Assembly (NCBI GenBank): GCA_005887995.1
Contig: VBJD01000045.1
Location: 1 to 34,310, forward strand
Source: Chloroflexota bacterium
Lineage (GTDB): Bacteria > Chloroflexota > Limnocylindria > P2-11E
DNA length: 34,310 nt
Reading direction: 5' to 3'
Within the stretch, counting starts at the first letter, position 1, and each line of letters begins with the position of its first letter. The notes under the pieces are model-generated. The model saw only the letters and a list, made by a program, of their open reading frames with translations, did not search any database and was not told the DNA's origin. Position numbers and translations under genes: made by a program. Below, piece after piece: positions 1 through 15,914 of the stretch.

Positions 1-449
1 TGGACGACCGCGGCCACCGGGGCGCCGTAGCTTCGCACGACGACCGAGAACTGCGTGTCGGCAGGGAGATCGACGTCCGCGTTGGGATCGTCGAGCAGGC
101 TCGCCCCCGGCGGGAGGTCCGCGCGCTTGTGACATGCAATGAACGCACCGTCGCTGAAGCGATAGAACGAGCTCTCGACCGTGGTCTGCACCGCGCCCGC
201 GTTCTGCACGTAGAACGGCGTATCCCATCCGTCAGGTCCACCGAGGGTCTTGGTGACATTCGGGAGGTATGCGCGCATCGTCAGCGCGCTCGCGCTGTCG
301 CAGACCGGGGCGGACGCGGGCGGCGATGACGTGAGCTGAGGCGCCGGAGCGGACGCGAGCTCACGGACCGCGGCAAGTCCGGGAGACGATGCCGCGATCA
401 CGACTGCCAACGCGGCCAGGATCGCGCGAGCTTGGACCGCGCCGCTCAC
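1..449 (-). CDS. Secreted protein, N-terminal part (runs off window)
   Basis: The frame opens with GTG at 449 and stays open to base 1, so about 149 residues are visible and the C-terminus is missing. Residues about 8-27 form a hydrophobic signal peptide (AILAALAVVIAASS region), followed by a Pro/Ser/Ala linker and then a folded-looking domain with the motif YLPNVTKTLGGPDGW and the later stretch TQFSVVVRSYG. I do not recognise a named domain; the pattern resembles repetitive extracellular beta-sandwich proteins. The start codon overlaps the stop of the upstream anti-sigma-like gene as GTGA, so the two are probably translationally coupled and belong to the same sigma-controlled operon. Function unknown; the exported location is well supported by the signal peptide. 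Confidence 0.72.
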   Translation of the reverse strand, partial: MSGAVQARAILAALAVVIAASSPGLAAVRELASAPAPQLTSSPPASAPVCDSASALTMRAYLPNVTKTLGGPDGWDTPFYVQNAGAVQTTVESSFYRFSDGAFIACHKRADLPPGASLLDDPNADVDLPADTQFSVVVRSYGAPVAAVV

Positions 450-1252
450 AGGCAGACCACGTTCGTCGCCGCGAGCCGGAAGTTGTCGACGGCAACGCGC
501 ACTTTCTTGCCGGCGAAGTTCTTCCCGTCTGACCAGAGGAAGATCTGGAACGTCGCGTCGAACGGACTTGTGAGCTGCGCGGGCAGCTCGACCCACGGGC
601 GATCCGCGCCCGCGCGATAGGAGCCCACGACGCTCGTGCCGTGACGCACCAGGCGAAGCGAACCCGCGCGATCCTCAGTCGCGGCTATCGCAGCGTGGCC
701 CGAACTGTCGCTCGCGGCGTACCGCTCCGTCTGGAACTGATCTCGCCTGACGTTCACCTGTCCCGGCGGAAATTCACCGAGCACGAATTGCGTGCCGTTC
801 GCCGACGGCCAGTCGAGCAGCGTGTAGTCGATGCTCACCTCGTAATCGCCGCGCGCTACACATCGGAGAGAACCGAGATTCGCGTTCATCCAGCCGCTCG
901 TGCCGATCGTCGCGTTCGCCTCGAGCGTGAGCTCGACCGCGCCATTGACGGCCTGCACGCTGTATCCCGTGCTCGCGCCCATCGGCGTCCAACGGTTCGT
1001 ATTGATCCCACCGGTGAAGTCATCGGCGAACACCACGACCTTCGTCTCGCTCGAGGCAGGCCGGACCGAGCTGACGATCAGTGGCGCGATCACGAACACG
1101 AAGGCGATGGACGCGGCCGCCAGCGCCATGGCGCGGAAAGGGAGGACGGAGCGGCGCGAGCTCGCTCGCGGATCCCACGATGGGCGTGCGGGCGGCACGG
1201 GCAAGCCGTCGACGGCGGCGACGATCCGGCGCCCGAGCTGGTCTTCATCCAC
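446..1252 (-). CDS. Membrane anti-sigma-like protein with extracellular lectin-like domain
   Basis: A 268-residue protein starting with GTG at 1252, overlapping the end of the ECF sigma gene by 8 bases. It has a short cytoplasmic part (residues 1-40, starting MDEDQLGRRIVAAVDGL), one transmembrane helix (about 41-63, ALAAASIAFVFVIAPLIV) and an extracellular domain of about 200 residues. That domain begins FADDFTGGINTNRW and has the look of a concanavalin/LamG or DUF1349-type beta-sandwich. The position directly after a sigma factor gene and the inside-TM-outside topology suggest an anti-sigma factor that senses something outside the cell, as clostridial RsgI proteins do with carbohydrate-binding modules. 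The N-terminal part is too short to recognise a classic ZAS or RsgI domain, so the anti-sigma role is inferred from context. Confidence 0.75.
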   Translation of the reverse strand: MDEDQLGRRIVAAVDGLPVPPARPSWDPRASSRRSVLPFRAMALAAASIAFVFVIAPLIVSSVRPASSETKVVVFADDFTGGINTNRWTPMGASTGYSVQAVNGAVELTLEANATIGTSGWMNANLGSLRCVARGDYEVSIDYTLLDWPSANGTQFVLGEFPPGQVNVRRDQFQTERYAASDSSGHAAIAATEDRAGSLRLVRHGTSVVGSYRAGADRPWVELPAQLTSPFDATFQIFLWSDGKNFAGKKVRVAVDNFRLAATNVVCL

Positions 1253-1667
1253 TCCGTCGAGACTCCAGCTCGCGGAACCGCGCGGCCGCGCGGCTGATGG
1301 CGGACGAGACGGTCCCCCGCGGAATGTTCAGATGACGCGCGAGCTCGTCCTGCGTCAGGCCGACGTAGTACTTCGCGACGAGCAGCGTGCGCTCGCGCTC
1401 GGACAAAAGCTGGAGCGTCGAGATCACATCCGCGCGGCGCATCGCATCATCCAGCTCATGCGGCTCGGGCGGCCGCACCAGGCGCAGGCGCGACGCGAGA
1501 CGAAAGCGCCGACGCTGACTGCGCAGGCTGTTGAGCGCCACGACGAAGAGCCATGCCTCAGCCGAGCGCAGGTCGGCAGGCGACCTTTGCAACGCGACAG
1601 CGAATGCCTCTTGGATCGCGTCCTCCACGCCTTCGTACGTCCCCGCGGCGGCAGCGAGCGCGCGCAC
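1245..1667 (-). CDS. ECF-type RNA polymerase sigma factor (start uncertain)
   Basis: The visible protein has sigma region 2 (GVEDAIQEAF, then AEAWLFVVALNSLRSQRR) and a clear region 4 helix-turn-helix (LSERERTLLVAKYYVGLTQ, then LARHLNIPRGTVSSAISRA). It would direct RNA polymerase to a small regulon, probably including this operon. GTG at 1667 is the first canonical start but falls inside region 2.1: the same frame continues upstream to 1838 with sigma-like sequence (ERWSALYEQLRPNL directly before it) and contains no ATG, GTG or TTG. The true start is therefore either a rare codon (ATC at 1745 is one option, with a GGAAGAAG stretch upstream) or the N-terminus is shifted by a frameshift or sequencing error. 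The downstream anti-sigma-like gene overlaps by 8 bases. Family assignment is firm; the start is not. Confidence 0.88.
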   Translation of the reverse strand: MRALAAAAGTYEGVEDAIQEAFAVALQRSPADLRSAEAWLFVVALNSLRSQRRRFRLASRLRLVRPPEPHELDDAMRRADVISTLQLLSERERTLLVAKYYVGLTQDELARHLNIPRGTVSSAISRAAARFRELESRRSG

Positions 1668-1855
1668 GAGGTTCGGGCGCAGTTGCTCGTAGAGCGCGGA
1701 CCAGCGCTCCGCCTCTTCGGTGAGGACAGCAGCGCTCGCCGAGATCGTCTGTGTCCGTTCTTCTTCCGTAGAGTCCCGGCGGCTCGCGTTCGCTGCGAGC
1801 GACCGCCGACCTTCCCCACGGCGGAGTATGACGGTGCGTCATAGCGTTTCTGGCC

Positions 1856-2311
1856 TTACGCCTCGCCGTGCCGGACGCCGATGCGTGCACCCCATAGCAG
1901 CTGCTCTGGCGCATCCGGCCGGTCGCGCCGTGTCGATTCGACATGTGACGGGAACCAACGGAAGAGATAGCTCCATCGCTCGTTGTCGACGACGGTCGGT
2001 GTCACCTCGAGCACAACGTTTCGGATCAGGTCGGGACTCGGATCGCTGATCTGACCCTGGCCGATGACCTGAAAGTTGTCGCGAGTGTCGAACGCCAGCA
2101 GGCGCAGGAACGCCGGGCCGGCACCCGAGTTGAAGCGCAGGTTCGCGGAGGCTTCGACGATGATCTCTTTGTCAGGGAGATCGACCCTGACCGAGATAGC
2201 GACACCGTCGCCAGCGCCCACGCGCAGGCCATAGGCCGAGCCGTTGTCCCAGTAGACCGACTCAATGATCTCAGCGTGCTGCGCCTTGAAGTTCACACCC
2301 GCATACGTCAC
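1856..2311 (-). CDS. Hypothetical protein
   Basis: A 151-residue frame with GTG at 2311 (reading MTYAGVNFKAQ). It contains alternating hydrophobic/polar stretches such as AISVRVDLPDKEIIVEAS that suggest a beta-rich fold, but no motif I recognise. No convincing ribosome binding site precedes GTG 2311. The same frame is open upstream to 2458 without another canonical start and still reads like protein (GARGSLAAAVEAPG), so this may be the remaining part of a longer or broken gene. It lies just upstream of the ECF sigma gene on the same strand and could be a leader gene of that operon. No signal peptide or membrane helix is visible in the annotated part. Confidence 0.5.
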   Translation of the reverse strand: MTYAGVNFKAQHAEIIESVYWDNGSAYGLRVGAGDGVAISVRVDLPDKEIIVEASANLRFNSGAGPAFLRLLAFDTRDNFQVIGQGQISDPSPDLIRNVVLEVTPTVVDNERWSYLFRWFPSHVESTRRDRPDAPEQLLWGARIGVRHGEA

Positions 2312-2497
2312 GAACCGAGTGGCTCGTCCCGGTGCTTCGACCGCAGCGGCCAGGCTGCCCCGCGCCCCGACGATGCTTGTTTGCGTACGACGGTCAGCGT
2401 TTCTTGGTCTGGAGGCGTCTAATTCGCAGACGGGGAAGGCTGTAGTCGCGCGCTGCGATTACCTCGCCTGCGGCGCCGCGGTGTGGAGGTGTAAGGC

Positions 2498-2917
2498 ATG
2501 GCTGAAGCGAAGGGCATCTTCGAGGTCAAGGGCTGGGACGAGAAGACCTACGAGGAGCTGCCGAACGGGGGCAAGCTCTCCGAGGCGAAGGTCACGCAGC
2601 ACTTCAGTGGCGACATCATCGGCGAGGGCAACGTCATCTGGCTCATGGCCTATCCGAGCGCGAACACTGCGCACTTCGTCGGCATACAGCGCTTTGTCGG
2701 AACGGTCGGCGGCAAGAAGGGAAGCTTCGTGGCCGAGACGATCGGCGACTTCGACGGCAAGGTCGCGAAGTGGCGATGCTCGATCCTCACTGGGTCGGGG
2801 ACCGACAAGCTCTCTGGGATCAGCGGTGAGGGCGCCTTCGAGGCGCCGCACGGATCGAGGGCCGAATACCGAATCGAGTACGAGTTCGAGCCCGCGAAGG
2901 TGCGCTCGGGGCGTTAG
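2498..2917 (+). CDS. DUF3224 domain protein
   Basis: A 139-residue soluble protein starting ATG at 2498 (upstream GGAGGTGTAAGGC supplies a ribosome binding site). The whole length matches the DUF3224 pattern: FEVKGWDE near the N-terminus, KLSEAKVTQHFSGDIIGEG, the FVGIQRFVGTVGGKKGSFV core and the GTDKLSGISGEGAFE end. This family forms a small beta-barrel of the allene-oxide-cyclase type; its biochemical role is unknown. It stands alone on the plus strand, and its TAG stop overlaps the TAA stop of the convergent FG-GAP/DUF3048 gene (shared TTAG at 2914-2917). Confidence 0.87.
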   Translation: MAEAKGIFEVKGWDEKTYEELPNGGKLSEAKVTQHFSGDIIGEGNVIWLMAYPSANTAHFVGIQRFVGTVGGKKGSFVAETIGDFDGKVAKWRCSILTGSGTDKLSGISGEGAFEAPHGSRAEYRIEYEFEPAKVRSGR

Positions 2918-5058
2918 CGGCTCGGGATCGTCCAGTCTTGCGGCACGACGTGGATCCACGTCTGCCCAGGTGAGAGGAGCACGAGCTCGCCCGACGCGTT
3001 GCGCACCGTGAACGCGTCGACGATGTCATTGCGCGTCCAGGTGACGTCCTCGCGCTGGCCATCGCGGAAGACGATCCCCTTCCCCGTGCCGGTGAGCTTC
3101 TCGTCGAGCTTGGGGTTGCCGGCCGGGTCGAGGCCGAACTCGGTCGTGAAGTGCACCTCGGTCTGGATGACGACGATGTTCCGCGCCGCGATCGCGACGT
3201 TGTTCGCCGCGTCGACCTCGCGCACACCGTCGTCGAAGCGCGCGTACGTCCGCGTGTTGGCGTCGTACGTGTACCGCACTGGGAACCCGCCGCGATACGG
3301 GACGTCGATCGTTGTCGCCGGCGCGCTGTCGCCAAAGCCTCCCGACGCTGGATCGCCGTCCGCGGTCGGCAGGAACTTCCACGAGGCGACGATGACGGGC
3401 TGATCCGCGTCATCGGCGTTCGCCACCGCGGCCATGACGTTGCGGTACGAGGTGAAATAGTTGTACGGCGCGGGCCGCGAGTCGACGCGGTAGCCCCAGC
3501 CGTACGAGGGCCCGAGGTCGATGTAGCGCTTCGCGACCGCGGCGTCGTAGTTGAGCGCCATGAGCTCCTCGGGACCGCCGCCCGAGTAGACGAAGATCGC
3601 GCCGAGGCTCGGGATCACCGGACGGTCGGTCATGCGCGCACTGCGCACTGCGCCGATGACGTCGGGTTGCTGCGACTGGAACACCGCCGCAAGACGCGTC
3701 GTGAGTCCCTCGACGAGCCACTCGTAGACCTGATCGGCCTTGCTGATGCCGTAGTGCGGCCGCGCGGTCGGGTTGTTATCTACCTTCACGTAGATCGGAC
3801 GCTTCGTCGGGTCGCCACCGGCGAGCGGCAGTCCGTTGAGGGGCCACGTCGGGCAGCGCAGCTCGGTCGCTCCCGAGCTCGCCGTGACGAACGTCGTGCC
3901 GTTCGCGCGCAGCGCCGTCGCGTGAAGCGAACTCGCCGCAGCCGGCGCGAGCGACAGTGCGTCGCCGCGCCCGTCGCCGTCCCAGTCCCCCACCCCGAGC
4001 GCGCCGGCGTACGCGCAGCTCGATCCCGCGGGCAGTGTCGCGACACCGCCCCAGCCGCCCACCGGATGGAAGGAGGCTGCCGCGTCCAGCACGTGGATCT
4101 TCGCGCCGCCGTCGGCGTCGAGCGTCTGGAGGACGAGGTCGTCGCGGCCGTCGCCGTTCACATCGATCGCGCCGAGGCTCGTCTGCGCGAGCGAGATGTC
4201 GACGTCGGTCGTGTAGACGTCGGGGAGCATCGTGAAGCCGCTCGGGGTCGACTCGAACACGATCACTGTCGCCTTCGAGCCCGACTGGTACAGCGCTGCG
4301 ATCTGCTCACCGCCGAGAGCGCGCGTGAACCGACCGACGGCGAAGCGCGCCTTCGCGATGTCGAACTGACCTTTGCCCGAGTCGAAGGCGGTGACCGGCG
4401 GTGCCAGCTTGCTGCCGTCCGAGTTGAACTGGTGGATGCGCAGGCGCGCGCCATCGTCCTGGTACATGACAAAGAGCGCGTCGCGCGTGCCTGTGCGCGC
4501 TCCCAGAATGGCGCGAGCGCGCGCCCACGGGTAGTCGTCACCGCTCCACCACGCGTTCGCGAACGTGAACGCGCTGCCCGTCGACTTGAAGACATACAGA
4601 CGTGAGGTGAAGCCGCCCGCGTCGTAGAGCGCCGCGAGGTCGTCCTTCCCGTCGCCGTCGAGGTCCGCTACGGCGAACTTCGCGCGTGGCAGGGAGAGGA
4701 ACGCCGGCTCGCTCTTGAACCATTCCGTCTCGGTGCTCGAGTCCTCGACCGAACCGCGGCGCACCGCGATCTGCACCCCAAGATCGTTCGATGGATCGCG
4801 GATGACCGCGACCTGCGTCGAGCGAGAGCCATCGAAGTGCCCGCTCGCCACGATCGCGTCCCCCACTCGGGTGACGGAGCGCGCGTGCAGCGCCGCGGGC
4901 GTGGGCGTGGCCGTCGGGGAGACGAACGGCGACTGCGTGAAGAGCTCCGTCGGGCTGGGGAGCGGTGACGTGACGGTCGTGCACGCCACGACGATCGTCG
5001 CGAGGACTGCGAGCGCGCGCAGTTTCGCGATCACGCCGCGCGGATACGCACGCGCCAT
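2914..5058 (-). CDS. Lipoprotein with FG-GAP repeats and DUF3048 domain (YerB-like)
   Basis: Starting at ATG 5058 gives 714 residues. The first 26 form a lipoprotein signal ending in the lipobox VVAC (Cys26), followed by a Pro/Ser/Thr-rich linker. The middle section (about residues 60-400) holds FG-GAP/VCBS-type repeats with calcium-loop signatures such as DLDGDGKDDLAAL, DVNGDGRDDLVLQ and DWDGDGRGDALSL, suggesting a beta-propeller. The last 295 residues are DUF3048 (KVDNNPTARPHYG, EGLTTRLAAVF, GAVRSAR, with the C-terminal half ending GQTWIHVVPQDW), as in Bacillus YerB. In-frame starts further upstream (5118, 5127) would add residues before the signal peptide and have no better ribosome site. 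It is probably a lipid-anchored surface protein; the DUF3048 function is unknown. It is divergent from the M23 lipoprotein gene. Confidence 0.85.
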   Translation of the reverse strand: MARAYPRGVIAKLRALAVLATIVVACTTVTSPLPSPTELFTQSPFVSPTATPTPAALHARSVTRVGDAIVASGHFDGSRSTQVAVIRDPSNDLGVQIAVRRGSVEDSSTETEWFKSEPAFLSLPRAKFAVADLDGDGKDDLAALYDAGGFTSRLYVFKSTGSAFTFANAWWSGDDYPWARARAILGARTGTRDALFVMYQDDGARLRIHQFNSDGSKLAPPVTAFDSGKGQFDIAKARFAVGRFTRALGGEQIAALYQSGSKATVIVFESTPSGFTMLPDVYTTDVDISLAQTSLGAIDVNGDGRDDLVLQTLDADGGAKIHVLDAAASFHPVGGWGGVATLPAGSSCAYAGALGVGDWDGDGRGDALSLAPAAASSLHATALRANGTTFVTASSGATELRCPTWPLNGLPLAGGDPTKRPIYVKVDNNPTARPHYGISKADQVYEWLVEGLTTRLAAVFQSQQPDVIGAVRSARMTDRPVIPSLGAIFVYSGGGPEELMALNYDAAVAKRYIDLGPSYGWGYRVDSRPAPYNYFTSYRNVMAAVANADDADQPVIVASWKFLPTADGDPASGGFGDSAPATTIDVPYRGGFPVRYTYDANTRTYARFDDGVREVDAANNVAIAARNIVVIQTEVHFTTEFGLDPAGNPKLDEKLTGTGKGIVFRDGQREDVTWTRNDIVDAFTVRNASGELVLLSPGQTWIHVVPQDWTIPSR

Positions 5059-5159
5059 GCCATTGAACGCTCTGCGAACGAGCAGGCGCTTCGTATCGAA
5101 ACGGTTCGCGAACTTCATCCCACGCACATCGCGGTCAACGGGCGTGGCGTTCCAACGGT

Positions 5160-6650
5160 GTGCGGGTGGGGTTGGGCATCCAATCGATCGTCGTTATGTT
5201 CGTCTGCGTCGCTGTCGCGACCATGCTCGCCTGTACGCCGACACCACGAACGACCGTGGCGCCGCTCCCTCCCTACGCGTCGGTGCCCGAGGACCCGCTC
5301 ACCCACGTCAAGCCGGGCGACATGCTCGCCTGTGTGACTCGGGAGAACATCCCCCAGATCCCGGCCGCGTTCGACGCGAAGTGGTCGCCCGATTCGACAA
5401 GGCTCGCGGTGACGCGCATCTCGCGCGAGGCGAACCACCGGATGATCACGGGCTACGAAGAGGTACAGCGGCTCTCGATCGTCGACGTGACGACTGGACA
5501 GGTGCACGAGCTCGGCCAGGGGAATAAGCCGGTCTGGTCCGACACCGGCACCTACCTCGCGTACTGGCCGGACGGGAACGACCTCCGGGTCGCACGCGCC
5601 GATGGGCGCCTCGCCGCGATCGTCCCCTCCACCGAGCCGTCGGTCCGCTTCGTCGGCGACGACCTCTACTACTTCTACAAGGACGAGCTCCGCGTCTGGC
5701 ACGACGGCCTGGTCATCACGATCGTGCACGTCGATCCCGACCTCGAGCCGAGGTACCCGCAAGACGACGTCTACTTCAGCGCCGACGCCGAGCGGTTCGT
5801 GATGACCCGCTACTACACCGACGGCTCCGCCGACCGTTACCTCGGAGTCACCGCGACCGGTGTCATGACGCCGCTCGCCGCCGATGGCGCGGTCTTCACG
5901 GAGTGGTCGCCCGTCGGCAAGTCCCTGCTCGTGCGGACGACCAATGACGTCTCGTTGCGCGACCTCGCCGGTGACCAGTGGTCGAAGACGCTCGACGTCA
6001 CGACGCGCATCCACGGCTGGACGGCCGACGGTCGGCTGCTCCTCGGCTCGCTGACGCCGGAGACGCCGGGTGCGATCGCCTTCGATCGGTCGAACGTGTA
6101 CTCGAAGAGCGGTATCGGCGCGCCTGCGACCCTGCCGAACCTCTTCGGCGTGCGCGCGTTCAGCCCCGACGGCCGCTACTTCGCCGGGACCTACCTCGCC
6201 GATCGGCTGACCACGACGCTCGCGCTGTTCAGCTGCGGCAGCGCGACGCCGGACGTCCTGCGCGCGGAGACCGCGGCGCGTGCGCACGTCTCGTCGGTGG
6301 AGGGCGGATTCATCCGACCGGCCTCCGGCGCGATCAGCCAGTTCATGCAGGGCAGCCACACCGGCCTTGACATCTCGGCGCCCTACGGCACGCTCCTGGT
6401 CGCCGCCGACGACGGCGTCGTCGATGAGGTCGGCTGGGTCGCTGTCGGCGGCCGGCGCGTCTGCGTGATGCACGCGGGCGCGCTCGAGAGCTGCTACTAC
6501 CACACCTCCGTGCCGCTGGTGAACATCGGCGAGCGCGTGGTGCGTGGACAGCCGGTCGCGCTCGTCGGCATGACCGGCTTCACCGCGGGGCCGCACACGC
6601 ACTTCGAAGTGAAGCTCGACGGCCGCATCGTCGACCCGCTGAGTTACTAG
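5160..6650 (+). CDS. Lipoprotein M23 family metallopeptidase with TolB-like propeller
   Basis: 496 residues from GTG 5160 (GTG 5166 is also possible). A lipoprotein signal ends around LAC (Cys25). Residues about 60-370 carry propeller-like repeats with KWSPDSTRLAV, PVWSDTGTYLAYW and RAFSPDGRYFA, typical of TolB/WD40-type blades. The C-terminal domain (about 375-496) is a LytM/M23 endopeptidase with the full zinc set: HTGLD (His400, Asp404), His448 in YYHT, and the HTH motif (His479, His481). Such enzymes cut peptide cross-bridges in peptidoglycan; this one should act at the outer face of the membrane. No ribosome site is obvious. It is divergent from the DUF3048 lipoprotein, sharing a roughly 100-base promoter region. 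Confidence 0.9.
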   Translation: MRVGLGIQSIVVMFVCVAVATMLACTPTPRTTVAPLPPYASVPEDPLTHVKPGDMLACVTRENIPQIPAAFDAKWSPDSTRLAVTRISREANHRMITGYEEVQRLSIVDVTTGQVHELGQGNKPVWSDTGTYLAYWPDGNDLRVARADGRLAAIVPSTEPSVRFVGDDLYYFYKDELRVWHDGLVITIVHVDPDLEPRYPQDDVYFSADAERFVMTRYYTDGSADRYLGVTATGVMTPLAADGAVFTEWSPVGKSLLVRTTNDVSLRDLAGDQWSKTLDVTTRIHGWTADGRLLLGSLTPETPGAIAFDRSNVYSKSGIGAPATLPNLFGVRAFSPDGRYFAGTYLADRLTTTLALFSCGSATPDVLRAETAARAHVSSVEGGFIRPASGAISQFMQGSHTGLDISAPYGTLLVAADDGVVDEVGWVAVGGRRVCVMHAGALESCYYHTSVPLVNIGERVVRGQPVALVGMTGFTAGPHTHFEVKLDGRIVDPLSY

Positions 6651-12589: not shown

Positions 12590-14686
12590 CTAGAAGGGCG
12601 TCGTCCTCACGAGGGTGCTTCTCAGTCCGAGCGTGGTGCGCAGGAAGCGATCGCCTTTGAGGTCCACGGTCGCGAGGGTCCCATCGATCTGCACCGAGAT
12701 CGGGCGGCCGCCCGGACTTTCGTTGAAGCGCATCGCGACGAAGCCGCCGATGTCATAGCCGTAATCGACCCAGATCTCGTGACGGATCTGCTCGGGCGTG
12801 AACGAGGTGGCCCACAGATCGAATGGCATGCCGCCAAAGCGATCGTATGCGAGCGCCTCCGCCGGATCGTCGATGACCGCCAGGTACGGCCAGCCATCAG
12901 CGCACTTCCATGTGTCGCCAACGCGCTCGGCCTCGAGCACACAGCCGACGTTCTCGGTGATGCCGCCGTCCGCGGACGAGTACAGCGCGCGGATCGGCTT
13001 GCCGTCGTACGTGAGGATCATCGCCTTGGTCGACGCCACGGCCGCGGTCGCGCGTGGCGTCTCGAGTGTGTGCCCGACGTAGCACTGGTCGGCAGTGTCG
13101 TCGCGCACATCCCACGTGCGATCGCCCGCGGTCGATTGGCGCCACGCGACGTACGTCCGTGCGGTGATGGCCTGCGCGCGCAGTGCCTCCATCTGCCAGT
13201 CGCTCGGCATCTCGCCGGGAAGCGCACCCTTCATGTAATCGTCCGAGCCGACGTAATTCACGACGCGCAGCATCCCCTCGTCGCGCACCTGGACGAGCAT
13301 GTTGCCGCGGTAGTCGAGACCCTTCTCGCGCACGAAGATCGGATCCCACCACTGCTTCGGGATCAGCGTCAGCGAGTCATCGTCGCCCGCGAACACCGTG
13401 CGGCCCGACCAGGCGTCGACGGCGACGAGCGTCGTCCCGCCGTACACGCCGAAGCGCACTGGCTGATTCGGGGCGGTCTCGAGGTAGACGACGCTGGGGT
13501 CTGCATCGTTCACGAGCAGCATTCCGCCGGCCGAGCTCATCTGCGCCGTGCTGAAGATCGTGCGACCGACGCAACCGGTGGACGGGTACGAGAGCAGAAC
13601 GCGGAACGGCTTCGTCGCCGGCTGCGTGCCGAGCGTCGCGAGCGGGAAGTAGTGCGCGACGATCTGCTCGCCGGTCAGTGGCCGACCCACCGCACCCTGG
13701 GCCCATCCCTGCGCGCCCCACTGCGAGAAGCCGATCCCGTGACCCCAGCCCTTGCCGTACAGCGTGATGTCCGACGACACCGTGACGACGTCCGTCGCGC
13801 GCATGGGCACGGCGTGGTCGCTGAACCAGCCCACGCCTTCCTCGACCATGTCCCACGCGAGCGTGTACGTGCCCGGCGTCGACGGCGCGCGCACCGCGAC
13901 CGCGATCTCCATCTTCTCGCCCGGCCAGAGGTCGTGCGGCAGTGCGTTGCGCGCTCCATCCCAAATGACCGGCGTGCTGCCATCGAACCAGTGATAGGAG
14001 ACGTGGATCGGATGCGGCCCGCTCGCGTGCCACGTGGCGAGGCCGGTGTTCGCGATGACGAGCTCGACCGGCACCTCGCCGCCCGGGATGATCGTCGCGG
14101 GGGCCGTCGAATCTCCATAGCCCGCGTCGAGATCGGTCGTCACGCGCAGCGGGAACGAGCCCGCAGGCGCTTCCTCGTGCGAGAACCACGCCACGCCGTC
14201 GCGGATGAGATCGGGTCGTACGACGAAGTTGCCCGTGTATCGGGGCGCGATGAGCGACATGAGCACGGTCGTCTCGCCGCCCGGAGCGACGTCCTCGCTG
14301 AGCGGGCTGCGCGGGCCGTCCCAGCTCAAGAGATCGCCCGCGGCGTCATAGAGGTGATAGGAGAGACCCACGGGGTGCGCGCCGTTCGTCTCCCACGTCG
14401 CCTCGCTGAGGTTGCGGATGGTGACCGGGATCGATGCGGTCTCACTCGGCCGCACCGGGTCGGCGGTCGCGACATATGTGGCCGCGCGATGGACCGGATG
14501 CAGCGTGTCGAGCGGAGCGGGACCGATGAATGTCCCTCCGCGCGCGACGGGCGCGGCGCGCTCGACCTGCGCCGAAACCGCCGCTTCCGCCGCGCGGAGG
14601 CCCCGCGCGTCGGTCTCGGTCACGGCGACGCCGAGGAGCATCGCGATCAGGGCGAACAGGACCGCGTACATCCGGCGCAGGCGCAT
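12590..14686 (-). CDS. SpoIID/LytB-domain surface protein with two NBR1-like Ig domains
   Basis: 698 residues from ATG 14686; the frame is open further upstream but the signal peptide (RMYAVLFALIAMLLGVAV) starts right after this ATG. Two repeated beta-sandwich domains follow (IPVTIRNLSEATW and VELVIANTGLATW, each with an aromatic YHLYD/YHWFD and a GVAWFS/GVGWFS end), resembling the Ig-like domain next to BRCA1. The C-terminal 350 residues form a SpoIID/LytB domain: GKGWGHGIGFSQWGAQGW and DDYMKGALPGEMPSDWQ, then EALRAQAITARTYV, the family's catalytic-groove signature. SpoIID cleaves denuded glycan strands of peptidoglycan; non-sporulating bacteria use it in wall remodelling. The gene is divergent from the SnoaL-tailed sigma factor, with about 240 bases of shared upstream DNA. 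Confidence 0.9.
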   Translation of the reverse strand: MRLRRMYAVLFALIAMLLGVAVTETDARGLRAAEAAVSAQVERAAPVARGGTFIGPAPLDTLHPVHRAATYVATADPVRPSETASIPVTIRNLSEATWETNGAHPVGLSYHLYDAAGDLLSWDGPRSPLSEDVAPGGETTVLMSLIAPRYTGNFVVRPDLIRDGVAWFSHEEAPAGSFPLRVTTDLDAGYGDSTAPATIIPGGEVPVELVIANTGLATWHASGPHPIHVSYHWFDGSTPVIWDGARNALPHDLWPGEKMEIAVAVRAPSTPGTYTLAWDMVEEGVGWFSDHAVPMRATDVVTVSSDITLYGKGWGHGIGFSQWGAQGWAQGAVGRPLTGEQIVAHYFPLATLGTQPATKPFRVLLSYPSTGCVGRTIFSTAQMSSAGGMLLVNDADPSVVYLETAPNQPVRFGVYGGTTLVAVDAWSGRTVFAGDDDSLTLIPKQWWDPIFVREKGLDYRGNMLVQVRDEGMLRVVNYVGSDDYMKGALPGEMPSDWQMEALRAQAITARTYVAWRQSTAGDRTWDVRDDTADQCYVGHTLETPRATAAVASTKAMILTYDGKPIRALYSSADGGITENVGCVLEAERVGDTWKCADGWPYLAVIDDPAEALAYDRFGGMPFDLWATSFTPEQIRHEIWVDYGYDIGGFVAMRFNESPGGRPISVQIDGTLATVDLKGDRFLRTTLGLRSTLVRTTPF

Positions 14687-14924
14687 TCGTGGGTGGAACG
14701 TCCCCGAGTGGCCGGTATCACGCCAAGCGGGAGGTCGCTTTAGCGGCTGGTATACGAGCGAGCGGTACTGCCCACCGATGACTTTCGTCCGACTTGACCG
14801 TCTAAGCAGAGAAGAACGGCAAAGGAGGGCGCCCGGTGCGGATCTTGACGGTCGCTGCGCGCCCACGCGGGCGATAGACACCCAGCTCGTGTTTGGCCAC
14901 GGCGCGAGTTCGTACGATGGACTC

Positions 14925-15914
14925 GTGCAGGGGACGACGGTCGTCGCGCCGGACGGCGACCTCGGGCGGCAGCTCGATCAGCATCGCGCCGATCTCGTCG
15001 CGTACTGCTATCGGATGCTCGCGTCGCCGTTCGAGGCTGAGGACGCGGTCCAGGAAACGTTCCTCCGGGCGTTCCGTTCGTACGGCAGCTTCGAGGGCCG
15101 CGCCGCGATGAAGACGTGGCTGCACCGAATCGCCACGAACGTCTGCCTCGACATGCTCCGCAGCAAGAAGCACCGGGTGCGTCCGATGGACCTCGGGCCG
15201 GCCCGCGAGCCGATCGAGCAGAACCTCAACGTGCCGGCGGAGATCACCTGGCTCGAGCCGATCCCCGACACGCTCGTCGCACCCGACCCTGACCCATCGG
15301 ACGTCGCGACGTCCAAGGAGAGCGTGCGGCTCGCGTTCATCGCCGCGCTGCAGCGCCTCCCGGCGAAACAGCGCGCGACGCTCATCCTCTGCGAGGTCAT
15401 GCAGTGGAAGGCCGCCGAGGTCGCTGAGCTGCTCGAGATGAGCACGGCGAGCGTGAACAGCGCCCTGCAGCGCGCGCGTGCGACGCTGAGATCGAGCGAA
15501 GCGAACGAAGTCGCGCCGGCGCCGAAGCTCGACGACGCGCAGCGGGCGCTGCTCGCGCGCTACGTCGAGGCGTTCGAGAAGTACGACATCTCGCTGCTCA
15601 CGAGGGTCATTCGCGAGGACGCGCGTCAGTCGATGCCGCCGTTCGATCTGTGGCTCCAGGGCCGCGACGACATGTTCGCCTGGTGGTTCGGCGTGGGCAT
15701 CGGCTGCAAGGGCTCGCGCCTGCTGCCGGCCGGCACGGCGAACGGCTCGCCTGCGTATGGCCAGTACAAGCCCGCCGCGAATGGCAAGGGCTACGAGCCG
15801 TGGTCGCTGCAGGTCATCGAGCTCACGCCGACCGGCGTTGGCGAGATCACCTTCTTCCTCGACACGCAGAAGCTCTTCCCGCTCTTCGGGCTACCGCTCC
15901 ACCTCGACGCCTAG
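14925..15914 (+). CDS. ECF sigma factor with C-terminal SnoaL-like domain (TIGR02960/SigG type)
   Basis: 329 residues from GTG 14925 (GTG 14889 is an alternative; neither has a strong ribosome site). Region 2: ADLVAYCYRMLASPFEAED with AVQETFLRAF and MKTWLHRIATNVCLDML. Region 4: LQRLPAKQRATLILCEVMQ and AAEVAELLEMSTASVNSAL. After residue about 200 a SnoaL-like/NTF2-fold domain follows (ALLARYVEAFEKYDISLLT, RDDMFAWWFGVGIGC). Such C-terminal domains replace anti-sigma control in this ECF group and are thought to switch the factor by direct ligand or core contacts. The family usually has about 320-340 residues, which fits. It is divergent from the SpoIID-type gene and its stop overlaps the stop of the convergent STAS gene. 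Confidence 0.92.
   Translation: MQGTTVVAPDGDLGRQLDQHRADLVAYCYRMLASPFEAEDAVQETFLRAFRSYGSFEGRAAMKTWLHRIATNVCLDMLRSKKHRVRPMDLGPAREPIEQNLNVPAEITWLEPIPDTLVAPDPDPSDVATSKESVRLAFIAALQRLPAKQRATLILCEVMQWKAAEVAELLEMSTASVNSALQRARATLRSSEANEVAPAPKLDDAQRALLARYVEAFEKYDISLLTRVIREDARQSMPPFDLWLQGRDDMFAWWFGVGIGCKGSRLLPAGTANGSPAYGQYKPAANGKGYEPWSLQVIELTPTGVGEITFFLDTQKLFPLFGLPLHLDA

Follow-up and report, generated by a model that had tools for sequence, protein, structure and literature searches.

The question raised by the left end of this Chloroflexota contig is whether three overlapping genes encode a device by which an extracellular ligand sets the activity of an ECF sigma factor, and how such a device would relate to the SigI/RsgI systems of clostridia. 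The draft genome of the host (3.02 Mb in 231 contigs, 87% complete) includes the window analysed here, a stretch of 34,310 bases that constitutes one whole contig. Its left end carries, on the minus strand and in leftward order, an ECF sigma factor gene, a gene for a 268-residue protein with a single transmembrane (TM) segment and a gene for a secreted protein. An earlier note on this DNA, made from the sequence alone, had described the three genes as joined by an 8-base and a GTGA overlap, and both overlaps were read in the sequence. The first (1245-1252, minus strand) places the sigma stop codon (1245-1247) inside the TM gene, whose start is at 1252, and in the second (446-449, minus strand) the TGA stop of the TM gene (448-446) overlaps with the GTG start of the third gene (449-447). 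The layout given in the note for positions 1-1838 is correct, but the limits themselves are not those of the genes, since 1838 is merely the end of an open frame and the third gene is truncated by the contig end at base 3.

A frame of 151 residues (1856-2311) closely precedes the sigma gene on the minus strand; it may belong to the operon, and no match to it was found in Pfam or NCBIfam. The window also contains a minus-strand gene (2914-5127) for a DUF3048 protein with FG-GAP repeats, adjoined by a DUF3224 gene (2498-2917) and an M23 peptidase gene (5160-6650), as well as a plus-strand gene (14412-15914) for another ECF sigma factor, whose C-terminal domain is SnoaL-like and which we take to be ECF41-like.

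On the basis of its profile matches, the first gene product is an ECF sigma factor with regions 2 and 4. Region 4 is present (PF04545, 45.6 bits against a cut-off of 24.1), the match to region 2 is marginally below its cut-off (PF04542, 23.8 against 24.0 bits) and the ECF superfamily model TIGR02937 is passed with 59.3 bits (cut-off 42.9). The top-scoring NCBIfam model is nevertheless that of the SigE family, TIGR02983, whose cut-off of 141.55 is not reached (68.6 bits). A plasmid search with the sigma factor gave no matches. The stop-to-stop frame extends over 1245-1838 on the minus strand and offers no ATG, GTG or TTG ahead of region 2, the earliest such codon being GTG at 1667. Because of the comparison with the nearest relative, in genome G006, the gene is assigned to 1245-1745, and ATC at 1745 is probably its start, or else the site of an assembly error. 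The missing ATG, GTG or TTG, together with the absence at the window of the promoter motif of the sigma family (described below), could also be taken to indicate a decayed locus, in which the gene has lost its start and the sigma factor is no longer functional. We regard such decay as quite improbable, as the frame is open across regions 2 and 4 with the conserved residues of the family kept, both gene overlaps are intact, ATC is a listed start codon in translation table 11 and the draft assembly may contain an error at this point.

The second gene (446-1252, minus strand, GTG start), as characterised by its frame, a profile of related inner segments termed A3, AlphaFold2 and hydropathy, encodes the candidate anti-sigma factor. 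Hydropathy, which peaks over residues 42-60, places its only TM segment at residues ~41-60 (1073-1132), with the sequence RRSVLPFR on the inner side, preceded by an inner segment of residues 1-37 (1142-1252), for which the AlphaFold2 pLDDT is ~45-57. Alignment of related inner segments yields the consensus L-x3-L/I-D-x2-P-L-P-P-x3-W, referred to as the PLPP subtype, and a second subtype is similar to R-A-I-E-T-x4-E-T-P-Y-E-R-S-R. HxxxCxxC, the zinc motif of class I anti-sigma factors, which members of that class can lack, is absent from the TM protein, where cysteines occur only at 131 and 267. A PDB sequence search with the inner profile returned nothing credible.

Profile A3 was derived from 20 of 57 distinct inner segments, those of the PLPP subtype being picked by hand and the host genome being excluded; the source proteins are encoded directly behind ECF sigma genes in other genomes. 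When the host genome was searched with A3 in six frames, the window protein came top of five matches (residues 3-55, E 1.8e-5), followed by a protein which is likewise encoded directly behind an ECF sigma gene and by three weaker matches without an adjoining sigma. The inner segment of the window protein scored 28.5 bits, as compared to at best 17.6 bits when the inner part was shuffled 1000 times and the TM segment left as it is, and 13.8 bits when both were shuffled 1000 times. As it matches A3 and is encoded immediately after an ECF sigma gene, the window protein is a member of the PLPP family as defined here.

Matches to A3 at E ≤1e-3 were detected in 32 of the 177 genomes of the class and in 23 of 400 in a sample of the phylum, and most weak matches in both sets have no sigma. 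Among 52 loci that were read, sigma is directly upstream in all 19 scoring at least 50 bits, a count which is partly circular as A3 was derived from some of those places, and in only 10 of the 33 scoring less. Because of this low proportion among the loci under 50 bits, the family as counted here excludes weak matches from outside the class, even though one of them (L196) does have a sigma. Matches to P0001 over residues 2-57 or 8-57 (G026, G115 and G129) were not taken as relatives either, the one in L004 being by eye a frame for a HAD-like hydrolase, nor was a weak match in G018 (L005; 22% over residues 30-160).

Conservation of gene order, which the earlier note had proposed to survey in related genomes, was approached from the sigma factor. 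A search of the 177 genomes of the class gave a match in 162 at E 1e-3, as is expected for a large family. Places were chosen by sigma score and not by the next gene, and comprised 30 loci and 40 regions taken by hand from the list of sigma matches; three loci were dropped, where the sigma gene did not end inside the locus or was not found again, and removal of identical sequences left 64 places, each with at least 330 bases downstream. A place was counted if the sigma stop is overlapped or directly adjoined by a gene whose product has 25 or more residues ahead of a TM segment. Such a gene follows sigma in 57 of the 64 places. With shuffled downstream DNA the count was 4 of 1280, and for the other ORF ends of these loci it was 24 of 542. 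The closest sigma, that of G006 (53% identical), is the sister of the window sigma on the sigma tree (100/98), with both branches long and flagged by the program. Profile comparison of the two partner proteins aligns residues 4-50 only, with 40% identity, and no similarity was found between their outer parts. Because of the rank in the A3 search, the conserved gene order and this sharing of the inner part only, sequence comparison gives good support to the reading of the TM protein as the anti-sigma factor of the adjacent ECF sigma. The pairing supposed in the note is upheld in that the gene order is conserved as a type and the inner ~37 residues are conserved behind other ECF sigma genes.

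The TM protein could instead be a cotranscribed target and not an inhibitor of sigma, the pair being regulated at transcription like those ECF groups that have no anti-sigma factors. Binding to sigma is deduced from sequence, the inner segment has just ~37 residues and no described anti-sigma family in Pfam or NCBIfam is matched by it above the curated cut-off. However, the inner segment is conserved across the family and the outer domains are unrelated, and this is the pattern expected of a contact with sigma. We therefore think it unlikely that the protein is only a target, and continue to regard it as a putative anti-sigma factor.

Structure prediction, also proposed in the earlier note, is informative for the outer domain (residues ~70-268; 449-1045, minus strand). 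The AlphaFold2 model, computed from 14 sequences, has a mean pLDDT of 81.7, and residues ~71-268 form a beta sandwich with pLDDT mostly 83-97. According to Foldseek and VIA-align, residues 70-264 group with concanavalin-like lectins, GH16 glucanases and the GH43 C-terminal sandwich. The best VIA match has a Z of 18.9 with an rmsd of 2.9 over 177 residues, and ranks 1-50 extend from Z 18.9 to 16.4 (rmsd 2.4-5.2), families beyond those among the matches listed possibly fitting as well. The outer domain is thus confidently predicted to have a concanavalin-A-like lectin/glucanase fold, in agreement with the lectin-like sandwich that the note had seen in the sequence. Since the fold matches lectins and sugar-active enzymes, sugar binding by this domain is plausible. 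ExDxxE, the catalytic motif of GH16, is absent from it, and a PDB sequence search with the domain returned nothing credible. In the alignment of the outer domain, 8 of the 14 members have a weak match to the DUF1583 C domain (PF07622; best E 5.5e-4), and the window protein itself has none.

Relatives of the outer domain were found at 15 loci, in Chloroflexota, Gemmatimonadota, Geobacteraceae, Methanolinea and others, inside proteins which by eye are of secreted or surface type. For one of these relatives, L109, the neighbours were read, and there is no sigma among them; the same locus has a membrane-protein frame (803-2875, minus strand) inside which a long stretch is repeated in tandem, perhaps as a result of assembly. 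At E <1e-6 the domain is matched in just 3 of the 177 class genomes, the other two matches being in secreted LamG proteins, and it is not conserved beside related sigmas. The genes could form a sigma/anti-sigma pair in which the sandwich is structural or makes a protein-protein contact, for example holding the secreted partner, and is no glycan sensor. Not every concanavalin-type fold binds sugar, no sugar-binding residues were identified and the relatives of the domain occur in diverse secreted proteins. The top fold matches are nevertheless sugar-active enzymes or lectins, though a common fold proves no function. We consider this alternative to be of some weight without expecting it to hold, and retain a sandwich that senses a probable glycan as the preferred reading.

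Clustering of the outer parts from 54 distinct family members gave 25 clusters, between which no similarity is detectable (phmmer E <1e-3), although some loci are truncated and this may have split clusters. In a Pfam scan of 20 proteins, 15 had no match at E 0.01, and the remaining ones showed PD40, Gmad2/Germane, Sortilin/BNR, NfeD and a sub-threshold Cytochrom_D1. Along with the lectin fold of the window protein, the outer domains joined to the inner module include beta propellers, an Ig domain of the germination type and a membrane protease similar to NfeD. When the 25 cluster labels are placed on the sigma tree, 24 changes are needed, which is the minimum possible, so that outer domains are inherited within clades and replaced between clades; neither of the clusters c00 and c03 is a single clade on this tree. 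In the case of the NfeD-like protein (L073, 839-2362; NfeD1b_N, NfeD_membrane and NfeD), it is the second inner-segment subtype that is fused to the membrane protease, directly behind an ECF sigma gene, and a truncated relative is present at L047 (2-916).

The third gene (3-449, minus strand) is cut by the contig end after its first 149 residues, which comprise a signal-peptide-like stretch and, as recognised from relatives, the first copy of a repeat. This opening agrees with the secreted protein that the note had described. A single-sequence fold of the fragment is uninformative (pLDDT 39.5); in its relatives, which are long proteins of secreted type, the repeat is present in several copies. 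Of 28 genomes of the same family, 22 contain the first repeat, as does the one searched genome from another family of the same order, and none of 32 other genomes of the class does. The trio recurs in one other genome (G016), where a relative of the third gene starts 65-149 bases after a sigma/anti-sigma pair of the family and the outer domain of the TM protein is unrelated to that of the window. In G006, the gene after the pair is by eye a FabF-like synthase and not a relative of the third gene. Because of the GTGA overlap, we infer that the third gene is co-transcribed with the pair, and its product may be a target of the sigma factor.

A motif CTAA[AC][GC] occurs at a distance of 25-65 bases from the start in the upstream DNA of 29 out of 63 sigma genes of the family (shuffle mean 1.3) and is often followed by CATTA-like bases. 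The extended element, with 16-20 bases between CTAA[AC][GC] and CATTA or similar, is located 35-43 bases ahead of most starts, as seen near 3952 on the plus strand of L078 and near 2950 on the minus strand of L087. The occurrence of CTAA[AC][GC] in this position suggests autoregulation in relatives of the window pair. The CTAA-type motif was not found in the window, and its stricter form is absent from the whole host genome.

We consider it probable that the cassette operates as follows. The ECF sigma would be kept inactive at the membrane by the cytosolic anti-sigma segment of ~37 residues, and the outer lectin/glucanase-type sandwich would sense either a ligand outside the cell, probably a glycan, or the condition of the cell surface. 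Upon binding or loss of the ligand sigma would be released, most likely because the protein is cut within the membrane segment or close to it, and the freed sigma would transcribe its own operon, including the gene for the secreted repeat protein, and probably further genes.

The SigI/RsgI systems of Clostridium thermocellum comprise several parallel pairs per genome, and the outer domains of RsgI vary, with CBM3, CBM42, PA14, GH10, NTF2-like and others (PMC4711584, PMC12203970). The window pair has a similar arrangement, in that the gene after sigma encodes a candidate anti-sigma which crosses the membrane once and whose outer domain is variable. However, its sigma is of the ECF type and not SigI, its inner part has ~37 residues and leaves the RsgI model unmatched in Pfam and NCBIfam, and in its TM protein no distinct periplasmic domain separates the sensor from the membrane. 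Because sigma type and inner domain differ, the pair is not a member of the RsgI family, and the suggestion in the earlier note of an RsgI-like system in an unrelated lineage is valid as an analogy of layout and not as membership.

By size, class II (CnrY) is the closest anti-sigma class, with a very short inner segment (~37 residues here, below 50) before one TM segment, and in that class two helices wrap the sigma factor, but there is no sequence match to a solved chain of that type, and the PLPP-W motif is not mentioned in the available text of PMC7406223. In that survey, anti-sigma domains under 50 residues were set aside as possible divergent class II, and 72% of the ECFs from Chloroflexi are reported to be linked to class I domains (PMC7406223); part of the PLPP family may therefore already be counted among the latter. 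Inner segments of 4 of 20 members weakly match the CU044_5270 family (NF038083, best E 0.0037), and those of 3 of 20 match NF052375, 'anti-sigma factor' (best E 0.026), although the scores are far under the curated cut-off where shown and the window protein has no NCBIfam match. These weak matches hint that a related inner segment is known in other phyla. Judged by title, the papers listed on CU044_5270, concanavalin anti-sigmas, Limnocylindr sigma factors and Chloroflexi carbohydrate-binding sensors do not describe a PLPP-type pair family. We give an even chance to the broader proposal that an undescribed minimal anti-sigma domain of ~37 residues (L-x3-LD-x2-P-L-P-P-x3-W) defines a family of Chloroflexota ECF pairs which, with this one inner module joined to ~25 unrelated outer domains, is an independent counterpart of the RsgI panel.

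Because the published survey set aside anti-sigma domains of less than 50 residues, an entire set of proteins that signal from outside the cell to its inside may have gone without annotation in uncultured Chloroflexota. The inner motif could serve to list such sensors in any such genome, with the outer domain giving a hint at the signal of each.
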